Shown here one piece after another: positions 35,239 to 40,639 of a DNA stretch of 64,000 nt. Location of the stretch: the NCBI GenBank assembly GCA_036000965.1, contig DASYUT010000253.1, forward strand, positions 1-64,000, read 5' to 3'. Within the stretch, counting starts at the first letter, position 1. Each line of letters opens with the position of its first letter. This DNA comes from Actinomycetes bacterium. Its GTDB lineage: Bacteria > Actinomycetota > CALGFH01. Under the pieces are notes generated by a model. That model was not told the origin of the DNA. It did no database searches and saw nothing but the letters and a program-made list of their open reading frames with translations. The translations under genes were made by a program, and so were the position numbers.

Positions 35239-35254
35239 ATGGCGCAAGTACTAA
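34988..35254 (+). CDS. Possible leader protein before the monooxygenase operon
   Basis: An 88-residue Pro/Arg-rich frame. ATG 34988 has GGGAGG at 7 bp spacing, and the stop lies 16 nt inside the C-subunit gene, so the two could be translationally coupled. It has no recognisable domain and low complexity. A non-coding leader is equally likely. Confidence 0.3.
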   Translation: MTAGRGRRSVVVLARVHGPVEPRGSLPQPEPSDSLLSGPGDGGARWAPASTRAQDRLPAAPQAARPPPVSQHAAQRPRRRKEQAWRKY

Positions 35255-36060
35255 CGCCCACGGCCGACGAGCGGGTCTCGAGCGAGCGTCCCGGCAGGGG
35301 GCCGATCGACTGGCTCGGAGGCTGGCGCACCTGCATCGTGGGCTGCGTCGTCTTCTTGCTGCTGGCCATCGCGATCCGCATCTTCCAGCAGTTCACCGCC
35401 TGGACGATCGGGATCGACTCGGCCAGCCGCGACTTCGGCCTGTACTACCGCAGCCTGTTCGTGGCCGAGGTGGTGGGGGTCACGGTCGCCACGCTGTGGT
35501 GGTGGGGCGGCCTGGTCAGGCGGGGCCGCACGGCGGTCAACAAGAAGATCACCCACAGCGAGGAAGTCCGCCGGATCGCGGTCTTCTGGGGCCTGGTCGG
35601 CACCACCTGCGTGATCCTGTACATCATGGCCAGCTTCTGGCCAAACCAGGACGGCGCCTGGCACCAGACGGCCGTCCGGGACACCGCCCTGACGCCCGCC
35701 CACATCCCGATGTTCTTCCTGTTCTTCCCGCTCGGGATCACCTTCACGGTGGGGACCTACCTGTACGGGCGGTACTGGCTGCCGAAGGTCTACGGGGCCG
35801 AGAAGGGCTTCCCCTGGTCGTTCTTCCTGCTGATCGCCGCGTCGGTCACCGAGATGATGCAGGTCGCCATGAACGAGTGGGGCCACAGCCTGTGGATCAC
35901 CGAGGAGATCTTCGCGGTGCCGTTCCACTGGCCGTTCGTCTTCTACGGCTGGCTGGCGGCCGGCATCTTCGCCCTCTGGGCCGAGACGCTCGTGCGCCTG
36001 CTCCAGATCGAGGGCGAGATCGAGCAGCAGGCGACGGAAAGGGAAGAGGAGGTCGCATGA
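35239..36060 (+). CDS. pmoC/amoC: Copper membrane monooxygenase subunit C (PmoC/AmoC family)
   Basis: A 273-residue membrane subunit with about six helices. Both metal sites known from PmoC structures can be read with the right spacing. Asp138-x3-His142-x12-His155 (DGAWHQT and LTPAHIP) corresponds to the CuC site. Asn212-x3-His216-x13-His230 (MNEWGHSLW and AVPFHWPF) corresponds to the CuD site. GAGAAAGGAA precedes the ATG. It is the first gene in the order C-A-B that is conserved in this superfamily. Known actinobacterial relatives (Mycobacterium and Nocardioides hydrocarbon monooxygenases) oxidise short alkanes and alkenes; substrate here is unproven. Confidence 0.95.
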   Translation: MAQVLTPTADERVSSERPGRGPIDWLGGWRTCIVGCVVFLLLAIAIRIFQQFTAWTIGIDSASRDFGLYYRSLFVAEVVGVTVATLWWWGGLVRRGRTAVNKKITHSEEVRRIAVFWGLVGTTCVILYIMASFWPNQDGAWHQTAVRDTALTPAHIPMFFLFFPLGITFTVGTYLYGRYWLPKVYGAEKGFPWSFFLLIAASVTEMMQVAMNEWGHSLWITEEIFAVPFHWPFVFYGWLAAGIFALWAETLVRLLQIEGEIEQQATEREEEVA

Positions 36061-36222
36061 CCCGCTGAGGGGAGGGCCGGAGCCCTCCCCTCGGGGGACC
36101 ACCCGGGAGCACCACGTCCCGCCGCGGGAACCGAAGCTGCGACGGCGACCGTGACGCGGTTCACGGTCTGCCTCGGCCGAGCGCCGCTTCGAGGTCGGGT
36201 TCGAGAGTGGGAGGCACAACAG
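36061..36222. other. 162-bp C-A spacer
   Basis: A comparatively long spacer inside an otherwise tight operon. It contains CCTCCCCTCGGGGGACC-like inverted DNA near 36080-36100 that could form a small hairpin and tune expression of A relative to C. No gene is seen. Confidence 0.4.
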
Positions 36223-36987
36223 GTGGCGACGGACGCGAAGACGCTCGAGCTCCGTGAGCTCGTGAACAAGAAGTACAAGTACATCGACCGGAAATGGGAT
36301 GCGGTCTTCTGGATCACCGCCGCGTTCGTGGTGGGGGCGGCCGCAGACATCACCAAGCAGCTGTTCGCCGGCGACTGGGACTTCTGGACCGACTGGAAGG
36401 ACCGGCAGTGGTGGCCGATCATAACGCCGTTCGCGATCATCATCATCGGGTCGGCCCTGCAGTACATCCAGTGGCTGGCGTGGCGCTTCCCGACCGGGAT
36501 GACCTACACGGCGGTCTGCCTGTTCGTCGCCACGCTGGTGGGTAGATGGGTCCAGTGGGGCGCGTTCGTCTACTACCCGATGAACTTCGTCTGGCCGGCG
36601 ACGATGGTGGCGGCGGCGATCTTCGCCGACTGGGTCTTGTTGAAGACAAAGAGCTTCGTCCTGACGTCGATAGTCGGCTCGATGTTGTTCGCGCTGACCT
36701 GGTGGATATCGAACTACGTCCCACTCGCGCCCTTCCTGCAACCGGCGCAATGGATGGACCGGGTGGTGACGGTCGCCGACATCCAGGGGATCGAGTACGT
36801 CAGGAGCCAGACGCCCGAGTACCTGCGGATCATCGAGCACGGCTCCCTGCGCACCTTCCTGGGAGAGACCCAGTACGTCTCGCTGGTGTTCGGGGCGACC
36901 GTCGCGGTCGGCGGCTACTGGGTCGGGCAGTTCATCGGCAGAGGGTTGGCCATCTGGCCAATCGGCCGCTTCATGAAGAAGTGGTGA
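36223..36987 (+). CDS. pmoA/amoA: Copper membrane monooxygenase subunit A (PmoA/AmoA family)
   Basis: A 254-residue membrane subunit with about seven helices. The family hallmark GDWDFWTDWKDRQWWP is near 50-65; TPEYLRIIEHGSLRTF corresponds to the conserved segment near the C-terminus of PmoA. The DNA at 36370-36387 is GGCGACTGGGACTTCTGG, an exact match to the A189f pmoA primer, while the usual reverse-primer motif AFFSAF is replaced by VFGATV. A GTG at 36223 is chosen over an upstream GTG because GGGAGG precedes it and length then matches the family (about 247-255). Confidence 0.95.
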   Translation: MATDAKTLELRELVNKKYKYIDRKWDAVFWITAAFVVGAAADITKQLFAGDWDFWTDWKDRQWWPIITPFAIIIIGSALQYIQWLAWRFPTGMTYTAVCLFVATLVGRWVQWGAFVYYPMNFVWPATMVAAAIFADWVLLKTKSFVLTSIVGSMLFALTWWISNYVPLAPFLQPAQWMDRVVTVADIQGIEYVRSQTPEYLRIIEHGSLRTFLGETQYVSLVFGATVAVGGYWVGQFIGRGLAIWPIGRFMKKW

Positions 36988-37015
36988 CCCGACGGTAGAG
37001 GAAGGAGGTCGTACG

Positions 37016-38245
37016 ATGCTTCGCCGATACCGCCGCTACCTTTGGGCCGTCCTCGTCGCGGGCGCGCTCGTGGTGTCGTCCGCGCCGGCCGCGAACGCCC
37101 ACGGCGAGCGCGCCCAGGAGGCGTTCCTCCGGATGCGCACCGTCGGGTGGGTAGACGTCACGTTCTCCAAGGACACCGTCAGGCAGGGCGAGACGCTCAC
37201 CGTCACCGGCACGGCCAAGATCCTTGACGCGTGGCCGACCAACCTGGCCAAGGGCAACCCCAACACCGGCTACATGGCAGTGATCGCGCCGGGACCGGTG
37301 GTGATGCTCAAGGAGCGGACCATCAACGGCGAGTCCGCGCCCAGCCGGATCGACATCCAGAAGGGCAGGATCTACGAGTTCAGCATGACCATCGCCGGGC
37401 GGCGGCCCGGCCGCTGGCACGTGCACCCGTCCTTCTCGGTCAAGGGCGCCGGGACCCTGCTCGGGCCGGGCCACTGGATCACCGTCAAGGAGAACCCCGA
37501 CGGCTTCACCAACGACGTGAAGCTCGTGACGGGCGGCACCGTCAACCTCGAGAACTACCAGCTAGGGTTCACGTGGATCTGGCTGATCCTCACCTTCCTG
37601 ATCGGCCTGGCCTGGATGATCTACTGGACGGTGCCGAAGCGGACGGTCACCAACCTGGCCGTCACCAGCCAGATCCCCCTCAACACCGACGGGATGGCGT
37701 ACGGGCTCATCACCAAGAAGGACCACCGCAACATGAACTGGTTCGCCATCGGCACCGCGCTGCTGCTCCTGGCCGGGTGGCTGTACCAGGCGAACGCGTT
37801 CCCGACGAAGATGCCGCTGCAGGTGATCCAGTTCGCGCCGCCGCAGCCCGCCATCGCCGAGGAGCCCGTGTTCGCCAAGGCGGAGGGGGCCGACGCCGGG
37901 GCACGGTACGACCCGGCCACCAAGACGATGACCATGGACGTGAACGTCACCAATACCGGCACCGCGCCCATGGAGCTGAAGCAGTTCAACGCGGCGTACC
38001 TGGGGTTCAAGGCCGGCACGACGCCCGGGCCGGGCGTCGTGACCGTGACGCCCGGGGCCACCGTCGAGCCGGGGGCGACCACGAGGCTGACGTTGACCAT
38101 GAAGGACCCGGCCTGGGAGAACGAGCTCCTGGTGCCCATCGGCGAGTCGCAGCTCCTGGTCACCGGCATCATGGTGTTCGAGAACACCGAGGGCAAGCGG
38201 AACCTCACGGAGGTGGAGGCAAACCTGCAGCCAAGGTTCGCATAA
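37016..38245 (+). CDS. pmoB/amoB: Copper membrane monooxygenase subunit B (PmoB/AmoB family)
   Basis: A 409-residue exported subunit. The signal peptide (about 1-28, ending SSAPAANA) leaves His29 as the first mature residue, as in PmoB. His29 with His135 and His137 (GRWHVHPSF) make the CuB site, so it is intact. Two cupredoxin-like domains flank two transmembrane helices (about 182-203 and 240-260). GAAGGAGG precedes the ATG. The C-terminal cupredoxin (VTNTGTAPMELKQFN) matches family architecture. It completes the C-A-B complex. Confidence 0.95.
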   Translation: MLRRYRRYLWAVLVAGALVVSSAPAANAHGERAQEAFLRMRTVGWVDVTFSKDTVRQGETLTVTGTAKILDAWPTNLAKGNPNTGYMAVIAPGPVVMLKERTINGESAPSRIDIQKGRIYEFSMTIAGRRPGRWHVHPSFSVKGAGTLLGPGHWITVKENPDGFTNDVKLVTGGTVNLENYQLGFTWIWLILTFLIGLAWMIYWTVPKRTVTNLAVTSQIPLNTDGMAYGLITKKDHRNMNWFAIGTALLLLAGWLYQANAFPTKMPLQVIQFAPPQPAIAEEPVFAKAEGADAGARYDPATKTMTMDVNVTNTGTAPMELKQFNAAYLGFKAGTTPGPGVVTVTPGATVEPGATTRLTLTMKDPAWENELLVPIGESQLLVTGIMVFENTEGKRNLTEVEANLQPRFA

Positions 38246-38274: not shown

Positions 38275-38463
38275 ATGAGCGGGTCGATGCTTGCGCACGG
38301 AGGAGGACTGGCGGCCTTTGACGAGGCCGTCATCCTCTTCCTGTTCCTCGCGCTGGGCATCGGCATGGCCCTGGTCCTCAAGGCGGCCACCAACACGAGC
38401 ACGGAGAACGACGACGACGCGGACGCCGAGGGCGCGGACGCCGAGGGCGTGGAGCAGTCATGA
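38275..38463 (+). CDS. Small membrane protein 1 of the monooxygenase operon
   Basis: A 62-residue protein with a short outside tail containing LAHGG, one helix (AVILFLFLALGIGMALVL) and a strongly acidic tail (DDDADAEGADAEGVEQS). It starts 29 bp after the B subunit and overlaps the next small gene by 4 bp. Actinobacterial hydrocarbon monooxygenase operons have a short fourth gene (hmoD/bmoD); whether this is an orthologue cannot be decided here. It could be an accessory subunit or copper-loading factor. Confidence 0.75.
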   Translation: MSGSMLAHGGGLAAFDEAVILFLFLALGIGMALVLKAATNTSTENDDDADAEGADAEGVEQS

Positions 38464-38735
38464 GCGGCATCCTCGCGCACAGCGGGGTGATGGCGGGCAG
38501 CCACACCCTGCTCGTGTTCCTCCCCTTCATCCTGGCCGGGGCCGGCCTGGGGTTCATCGTCATGGCGGTCAACGACAAGGTCGACGCTCGGCCAGACGAC
38601 GGGTCGGTGCGCCTGCCGACCTCGAAGGAGCGGCCGCTGTATCACCTTCACATGCAGATCAGGGCGGGGGGCAAGGACGAAGACCCCGCGCGCGAGTCGG
38701 GGCCCGCCGTCGTGAACCTGCCACGCCGACGGTAG
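38460..38735 (+). CDS. Small membrane protein 2 of the monooxygenase operon
   Basis: A 91-residue protein. Its N-terminus MSGILAHSG resembles that of the preceding protein (MSGSMLAHGG), then one helix (TLLVFLPFILAGAGLGFIVM) and a basic/His-containing cytoplasmic tail (YHLHMQIRAGG). Start and upstream stop overlap (ATGA). The shared LAH-G motif next to a single helix suggests the two genes are paralogues acting together. Function unknown; linkage points to the monooxygenase. Confidence 0.72.
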   Translation: MSGILAHSGVMAGSHTLLVFLPFILAGAGLGFIVMAVNDKVDARPDDGSVRLPTSKERPLYHLHMQIRAGGKDEDPARESGPAVVNLPRRR

Positions 38736-38962: not shown

Positions 38963-39046
38963 CTAGGGCTCGGAAGCCCGCATGACGATGCCGACGCAGG
39001 CAATCGTCGCCAGCGCAATCACGATCGCAAAGATGACTCCGGCCAT
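38963..39046 (-). CDS. 27-residue single-helix membrane peptide
   Basis: A short frame begins MAGVIFAIVIALATIACVG and ends in a charged tail RASEP. It is almost entirely one transmembrane helix. The ATG (39046) follows GACAGGAGCGAGG, a good ribosome site. Codon choice is mixed but compatible. It is antisense to the operon, pointing back towards its terminator hairpin, with its promoter shared divergently with the membrane protein at 39135. Similar tiny peptides often regulate membrane complexes; function unknown. Confidence 0.45.
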   Translation of the reverse strand: MAGVIFAIVIALATIACVGIVMRASEP

Positions 39047-39134: not shown

Positions 39135-39683
39135 ATGGCAGAAGACCGAAGGGTCGAGGGAGTCTCCAGCCTGGAGCGGACGGTCGAGGCCGGCATCCTG
39201 GCCGGAATGGTGGCGGCAGTGCCGATAGGGCTTTTCGCGGCGATCGCCGCCGCGACCTACCAGCACATGGGCTTCTTCACGCCCGTGTACCGCATCGCGG
39301 CCGTCCTGGACCCCACCTCCATGCTGGTTTCGGTGCAGGAGGCCGAAACGGGCTCGCCGTTCTATTTCGATTTGCAGCCGCTGGTCGCCGGCAGCGCCAT
39401 GCATCTGACGATCGGCGGGTTCTTCGGCGTGGTCTTCGCCCTGCTCGCACGGAGCCTCGGGGTACGGGGCCCGGTCGCGATCCCGGTCGGGCTCCTCTAC
39501 GGCCTGGCGGTGATGGCGCTCATGGGCCTCCTGGTGCTCCCCCTGGTCGCCGACCTGCTCGGGGGTGGCCAGCCCGTGGCCGACGCCGCCAGCATCGTGG
39601 GCTGGCCCACGTTCACCGTCGGGCACGGGCTCTACGGGCTCACCCTCGGGGCGTGGACGGTGGCACGGCCGTGGCCGTCGTGA
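39135..39683 (+). CDS. Four-helix membrane protein of unknown function
   Basis: A 182-residue integral membrane protein. A charged N-terminus (MAEDRRVEGVSS) precedes a helix GILAGMVAAVPIGLFAAIAA, then a loop and three more helices, with TVGHGLYGLTLGAW at the end. GGAGGGCGG precedes the ATG at 39135. Its general look is that of actinobacterial membrane proteins related to YagU/DUF1440-like families, but no confident match is made. Location between the monooxygenase operon and the IclR gene suggests a possible link. Confidence 0.6.
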   Translation: MAEDRRVEGVSSLERTVEAGILAGMVAAVPIGLFAAIAAATYQHMGFFTPVYRIAAVLDPTSMLVSVQEAETGSPFYFDLQPLVAGSAMHLTIGGFFGVVFALLARSLGVRGPVAIPVGLLYGLAVMALMGLLVLPLVADLLGGGQPVADAASIVGWPTFTVGHGLYGLTLGAWTVARPWPS

Positions 39684-39766: not shown

Positions 39767-40639
39767 ATGGTGCCGGAAGGGAAGAATCCCTCAACGAGCG
39801 CAGCCGCCTCCGGGCGGGTACTGAGCACGGCCCAGCACGCCCTCCAAGCCCTCGAGATCATCGCCCAGCACCCCAAGGGCATCCCGATCAAGGCCCTGGC
39901 CCGCCGCCTGAACATCAGCCTCTCGTCGGGGTACTACCTCATCAGCTCCATGCGGGAGCAGGGCTTCGCCGAGGTCTCGCCGGCCGGGCCGGGCCTCTAC
40001 ACCCTCGGACCGAAGTTCGCCGAGCTGTACGAGGGCTACGTCGCGGCCAGCCTCCAGCCCGAGCGACTGACCCCGGTCCTCGAGGAGCTGCGCGACAAGG
40101 CGTCGGCCCGCGCCTACTCGGCGATGTGGAGCAACGGGGACCTCGAGGTGGTGGAGATCCGGGGCCGGCGCGGCGCGCGGGAGCTGCAGGACGTCACCAA
40201 GGGCTTCCGGGGTGCCGCCCACGGCCTCGCGCTCGGCAAGATCTACCTCGCCCACCTGCACGAGGACGCGTGGCCGGCGAGCCTGAGCGGGTCGAGCTAC
40301 AAGCGCTACACCCCGGCCACGATCACCAGCCCGGCCGCGCTGCGGCGCCACCTGCTCTCGGTGCGGGACAACGACCTCGCGTTCGATCTCCAGGAGTTCT
40401 CGACCGGCGCCTGCTGCGTTGCGGCGCCGGTCCGTGACGGCAGGAACGGGCTGGTGGCGACCTTGGGCATCTCGGTGCCCGCTCGACGGTTCGAGGCCGA
40501 GCAGAAGAACCTGGTCCGGGTGGTCCGGGAGCTGGCCGCCGCGGCGTCCGGGGAGCTGGCGGCGGTGACCGTCGCCTCCGCCCTGGGCGCGCAGGAGTCC
40601 AGCCAGCAGAGCCCGGGCAGCCCGGCCGGAAGCGCGTAG
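39767..40639 (+). CDS. IclR-family transcription regulator
   Basis: A 290-residue regulator. The winged helix-turn-helix (about 18-75) includes ALQALEIIAQHPKGIPIKAL and NISLSSGYYLISSM. The effector-binding GAF-like domain follows with GAAHGLALGKIYLA and FSTGACCVAAPVRDG. IclR proteins often control catabolism of aromatic or small organic acids. GAAGAAGGGGG precedes the ATG. It lies about 1 kb downstream of the copper monooxygenase operon on the same strand and is the nearest candidate regulator; this is inference from distance only. Confidence 0.9.
   Translation: MVPEGKNPSTSAAASGRVLSTAQHALQALEIIAQHPKGIPIKALARRLNISLSSGYYLISSMREQGFAEVSPAGPGLYTLGPKFAELYEGYVAASLQPERLTPVLEELRDKASARAYSAMWSNGDLEVVEIRGRRGARELQDVTKGFRGAAHGLALGKIYLAHLHEDAWPASLSGSSYKRYTPATITSPAALRRHLLSVRDNDLAFDLQEFSTGACCVAAPVRDGRNGLVATLGISVPARRFEAEQKNLVRVVRELAAAASGELAAVTVASALGAQESSQQSPGSPAGSA

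Follow-up and report, generated by a model that had tools for sequence, protein, structure and literature searches.

What do the two tiny genes immediately behind the copper monooxygenase (CuMMO) operon of an Actinomycetes bacterium encode? We addressed this question in a 64,000-nucleotide stretch of contig DASYUT010000253.1 (GenBank assembly GCA_036000965.1), here called the window. The assembly (6.47 Mb, 358 contigs) belongs to an actinobacterial class in which PmoB is present in 3/3 genomes examined. An earlier note on this DNA described the two genes, D1 and D2, as a duplicated accessory pair, possibly for copper loading or complex stability, and as a possible departure from the single hmoD/bmoD gene of known operons. 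For comparison, we used a relative from the same family and another genus (G001), together with other actinobacterial CuMMO operons.

The host enzyme is a CuMMO, encoded by xmoC, xmoA, and xmoB with the CuB histidine ligands; His29, His135, and His137 of the window PmoB are invariant in the PmoB alignment. This CuMMO is deep-branching, and its substrate is putatively a gas. The window PmoB is 31–33% identical to actinobacterial HMO and to proteobacterial CuMMO subunit B alike, and its scores against the AmoB and PmoB families of NCBIfam stay under the cut-offs. No relative of it was found in the viral contigs searched. The start of pmoA is ambiguous, as a GTG near 36223 matches the N-terminus of the relative (VAVDSKTLEL) better than the ORF start does; the true start is probably this later GTG, as in the relative. 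After the operon, both genera carry an approximately 180-aa membrane protein and then an IclR-type regulator, which is a candidate controller of the CuMMO operon. A one-helix micro-ORF in the same region is kept in the relative as MAGILFAVLIFLATIACIGIVIWGS..., where its orientation with respect to pmoB is the reverse of that in the window; it was thus inverted between the two genera. It has no Pfam match over the cut-off.

Table. Features of the window and of related loci
Feature	Location	Strand	Remarks
pmoCAB trio	window 35239-38245	+	D1, then D2 behind
pmoC/xmoC, CuMMO subunit C	window 35239..36060	+	Pfam AmoC PF04896, E 4.7e-44
pmoA/xmoA, CuMMO subunit A	window 36151..36987	+	Pfam AMO PF02461, E 1e-55
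pmoB/xmoB, CuMMO subunit B	window 37016..38245	+	Pfam Monooxygenase_B PF04744, E 1.3e-84
D1, 62-aa one-helix microprotein, acidic C-terminal tail	window 38275..38463	+	HmoD-like by position and motif
ATGA, overlap of D1 stop and D2 start, 4 bp	window 38460..38463	+	sequence
D2, 91-aa one-helix microprotein	window 38460..38735	+	conserved tail LPTxxERPLYHxHMQIR
27-aa one-helix micro-ORF MAGVIFAIVIALATIACVGIVMRASEP	window 38963-39046; L003 from 3225	-; +	AGGAGCG ribosome site
~180-aa membrane protein	window 39135-39683; L016 3783-4289		weak DUF1440
IclR-type regulator	window 39770-40639; L016 4334-5131		
Dx, 37 aa, between D1 and D2 of G001	L003 2817-2930		helix and acidic tail, without LAHxG
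Multi-helix protein of G724, starting ...LLAHGLGGSTDLPIP	L022 4277-5644	-	beside hydrocarbon monooxygenase operon
Small lipoprotein-like protein of G724	L022 5651-6139	-	HVH and HH motifs

The D1 start lies 29 bp beyond the stop codon of pmoB, directly downstream of that gene and in the same orientation. As the earlier note had described, D1 and D2 overlap by 4 bp, each has one transmembrane helix (at about residues 17–35), and the N-termini, MSGSMLAHGGG in D1 and MSGILAHSG in D2, have LAH(G/S)G in common. Its account of an acidic tail in D1 and a His-containing basic tail in D2 also holds: the D1 tail has a net charge of -8 after the helix, and the His-containing D2 tail is mixed and slightly basic (net +2; +6 in the D2 of the relative). 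Neither protein contains cysteine. Chance ORFs are ruled out by codon composition and conservation. GC by codon position is 0.71/0.44/0.90 for D1 and 0.71/0.46/0.92 for D2, near the pmoCAB values, and a GGAG-type ribosome site precedes D2. Even the looser motif [LV]AHxG has only 9 occurrences in the window ORFs (76,601 residues in all), which gives an expectation of about 0.002 for an N-terminus of 20 residues; the presence of LAH[GS]G at both N-termini is thus unlikely to have arisen by chance.

Searches of Pfam and NCBIfam gave no match to D1 or D2 at E values up to 1. Profile searches of the PDB gave no meaningful match for the D proteins, the chains of pMMO and AMO entries included; the PDB has several pMMO and AMO structures, and no listed PmoB relative is named as actinobacterial. 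An AlphaFold model of D2, made with two sequences, shows a single helix at residues 3–42; its mean pLDDT of 60 and pTM of 0.28 are too low to base a fold search on.

Behind pmoCAB, G001 carries a 55-aa D1 (MPGYTVAHMGGIDEL...), Dx, and a 91-aa D2. Neighboring genes in this D1-Dx-D2 series overlap by 4 bp, and a GGAG-type site stands before every start. The D2 proteins of G001 and the window are 62% identical, lie in the same place after pmoCAB, and conserve HxHM in the tail. With a pN/pS between window and relative of 0.46, as compared with 0.47 for PmoB, D2 is under purifying selection, as PmoB is. The corresponding values for D1 (38% identity and a pN/pS of 1.17, from an uncertain alignment) indicate that it probably evolves much faster than D2, and its similarity between the two genomes exceeds that of 2000/2000 segment-wise shuffles. 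One reading of this disparity is that only D2 matters, D1 being a duplicate in decay or without function. We consider this very unlikely: in both genera D1 retains an open frame, coding composition, the motif, the helix, and the acidic tail, and the first gene is D1-like in all distant operons. A scan of genome contigs for relatives returned only one truncated relative (L002), and in G002, of the same family, the contig stops inside pmoB.

Tandem duplication was assessed with 2000 shuffles per pair, each of which preserves the composition of the N-terminus, of the helix, and of the tail individually. None of the shuffles was as good as the match of window D1 to relative D2 or of relative D1 to Dx, and 12/2000 were as good as that of window D1 to window D2. 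A D2 profile scored window D1 above 5000/5000 shuffles. The comparisons of relative D1 with window D2 (308/2000) and of Dx with relative D2 (505/2000) were not significant. Dx resembles the second half of the D1 of its own genome, and it appears to be a truncated tandem copy. Because some of the cross-comparisons are not significant, tandem duplication of D1 and D2 is the best reading that these sequences support, short of proof. The proposal of a duplicated accessory pair is supported by the shuffles, by the third tandem copy in the relative, and by the occurrence of D genes only beside CuMMO genes, described below.

Following a check suggested in the earlier note, we sought homologues beside other actinobacterial CuMMO operons. 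A tblastn search with PmoB matched five plasmids, four of them actinobacterial. Two small one-helix genes overlapping by 4 bp follow subunit B in Mycolicibacterium NBB4, M. dioxanotrophicus PH-06, and Rhodococcus ZPP and WAY2. Here the first protein begins (M)xxxx(I/Y)LAHGGQ(L/M)T.DE and the second is without this histidine motif; the second gene is absent from the gene tables of both Rhodococcus plasmids. Three further operons came from a search of 401 Mycobacteriaceae genomes. One of them (G724) has D1 and a second small gene after a 22-bp gap, and the other two (G423 and G396) have a single D, PLAHIGG(I/V)PVVEG..., with an acidic tail and a start 4 bp inside the pmoB end. Overall, the gene directly behind subunit B is D-type, with (L/V)AHxG and one helix, in 9/9 complete CuMMO operons found in actinobacteria (the window; G001; the plasmids of NBB4, ZPP, PH-06, and WAY2; G724; G423; and G396), and the A, H, and G of the motif are invariant in the alignment of the nine D1/D-type proteins.

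Among the operons seen, a single D is confined to one genus (g238). Two genes are thus the usual state, and for these records the premise that known operons have one hmoD/bmoD gene fails. The claim that the window departs from it is not supported: NBB4, M. dioxanotrophicus, ZPP, WAY2, and a further mycobacterial genome also carry pairs. What sets the window apart is that both members have LAHxG and the second has another tail. Beside the hydrocarbon monooxygenase operon of G724 lie a multi-helix protein and a lipoprotein-like neighbor, neither with a Pfam match. The similar N-terminal LAHG of the multi-helix protein, an unrelated membrane protein, suggests that the D family may share the motif with other proteins.

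We use "HmoD-type microprotein" for an operational family defined from the nine loci. Window D1 has the position of this family as well as (L/V)AHxG and one helix, and D2 also has LAHxG and a helix. The genes at the HmoD/BmoD position, which in NBB4 encode WP_014805759.1 and its neighbor WP_041783847.1, are annotated as hypothetical proteins only. Shared features are the place directly after subunit B, a first protein with LAHGG...DE, one helix, and often an acidic tail. The second protein of the mycobacterial and rhodococcal pairs is without LAHxG and ends in another domain, GLGxVSLHEE..EFIxxVExG, whereas window D2 has LAHxG and ends in the conserved tail given in the table. Full-sequence homology of window D1 to mycobacterial HmoD was not upheld, as whole-sequence comparison with the Mycobacterium and Rhodococcus HmoD proteins was not significant (37–520/2000 shuffles as good pairwise; 800/5000 with a profile). 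Position and motif are the basis for relating window D1 to the HmoD-type proteins of mycobacteria.

Two other groups of small CuMMO-linked proteins invite comparison. PmoD combines a signal peptide and a C-terminal helix with a periplasmic domain in which two strictly conserved Cys residues form a CuA-like site; sequences under 150 aa were left out of the trimmed PmoD set (PMC6189053). D1 and D2 resemble PmoD/AmoD in being small membrane-anchored proteins encoded by genes linked to a CuMMO operon. They differ from PmoD in their size (62 and 91 aa), their lack of cysteine and of a periplasmic domain, and the location of the helix near the N-terminus; the absence of Cys and the wrong architecture rule out membership in PmoD/AmoD. 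In the archaeal AMO, native gels and cross-links support AmoX, AmoY, and AmoZ as small helical subunits, described as unique to ammonia-oxidizing archaea (PMC10030591). Like D1 and D2, these are small helical membrane proteins with CuMMO-linked genes, a likeness by description, and by analogy they may serve as a precedent for small CuMMO subunits.

The earlier note reasoned that homologues common in genomes without a copper monooxygenase would count against its proposal. No D-type gene was found in about 590 genomes and 72,000 plasmids without a CuMMO. Searches with NBB4 D1 and D2 each matched only the four CuMMO plasmids among 72,556 (E up to 1). A D profile (A1) run against 296 Actinomycetota genomes recovered the window and G001 only, besides one fragment with two internal stops, with nothing convincing in the 293 Actinomycetota genomes without PmoB. 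As a control, A1 detected G724 (E 3e-9) and missed the single D of G396 and G423; its negative result therefore excludes close relatives only. A broader profile (A6) was run against 301 Mycobacteriaceae genomes, where two PmoB-bearing genomes matched at E 4e-23 and 3e-22 and the rest at 6e-5 or above. A6 found both G396 and G423 but was built with them. The top of the remaining A6 matches is mostly the last helix of what we take to be DedA-like proteins, without LAHxG. A widespread small membrane protein unrelated to CuMMO is unsupported by these genome and plasmid searches.

Taken together, D1 and D2 are, in our judgment, probably accessory proteins of the neighboring CuMMO, with a single helix each and an origin by tandem duplication, acting as small subunits or as assembly or copper-acquisition factors. 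D1 and D2 would be the last two genes of an xmoCAB-D1-D2 operon, presumably co-transcribed, with translation of D2 coupled to that of D1 via the ATGA overlap. The D proteins have R/K after the helix and neutral-to-acidic N-termini, which by the positive-inside rule predicts an N-out/C-in orientation: LAH(G/S)G would face the same side as the copper domain of PmoB, and the charged tail would be inside. Within the membrane, the helices are probably packed onto the PmoA/B/C bundle. Produced in step with PmoB, the two proteins could be structural subunits or could aid assembly or copper acquisition. By analogy with archaeal AmoX/Y/Z, a small accessory subunit or assembly factor is the most economical reading. 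Against it count the poor conservation of D1, in which a precise binding surface is not evident, the absence of a PDB match, and the position-and-motif basis of the link between window D1 and mycobacterial HmoD. Recombinant hmoCAB of NBB4 is also reportedly active in M. smegmatis; if that construct was without D genes, they would be dispensable there.

Copper delivery or retention by the pair would make a permanent subunit unnecessary: the external His of LAH(G/S)G, together with the free N-terminus and residues close by, could bind copper transiently and hand it to the PmoB/PmoC sites. This His is invariant in the nine D1/D-type proteins, present in both window proteins, and predicted on the copper-domain side, and the D proteins are linked to a copper enzyme only. 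The HxHM in the D2 tail, conserved in both genera, would add to this picture but is predicted to be cytoplasmic. A single His without Cys or a Met cluster is a weak metal site and may be structural, and the second protein of the mycobacterial pairs is without this His. Copper loading by D1 and D2 is possible, and we hold this version of their role to be unlikely. Quite unlikely, in our view, is that the pair modulates something else, such as membrane organization, the supply of reductant or quinone, or quality control of the membrane complex. The acidic or mixed tails, predicted to be cytoplasmic, do diverge rapidly, like scaffold or regulatory tails, but the place in the CuMMO operon and the absence elsewhere favor a direct role.

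The genes at the D position of known hydrocarbon monooxygenase operons are already public as hypothetical proteins, and similar pairs are present, unnoticed, in known hydrocarbon-oxidizing actinobacteria. New here are a tandem pair with LAHxG in both members, a set of three in the relative, a D2 tail specific to the class, and the tally of 9/9 operons. The window extends the D-type family to a little-sampled class (three genomes) in a doubled LAHxG version. A more speculative idea, which we consider unlikely, is that actinobacterial CuMMOs are four- to six-subunit enzymes in which the LAHxG His of the one-helix subunits would form an extra copper-handling site at the outer membrane face and copy number (one, two, or three) would tune the enzyme between lineages. 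On purification, methane and ammonia monooxygenases frequently become less active or inactive, and the absence of small components is among the suspected reasons. The unannotated microprotein family found at each complete CuMMO operon of actinobacteria in this survey supplies concrete candidates for add-back and deletion experiments in a genetically tractable host.
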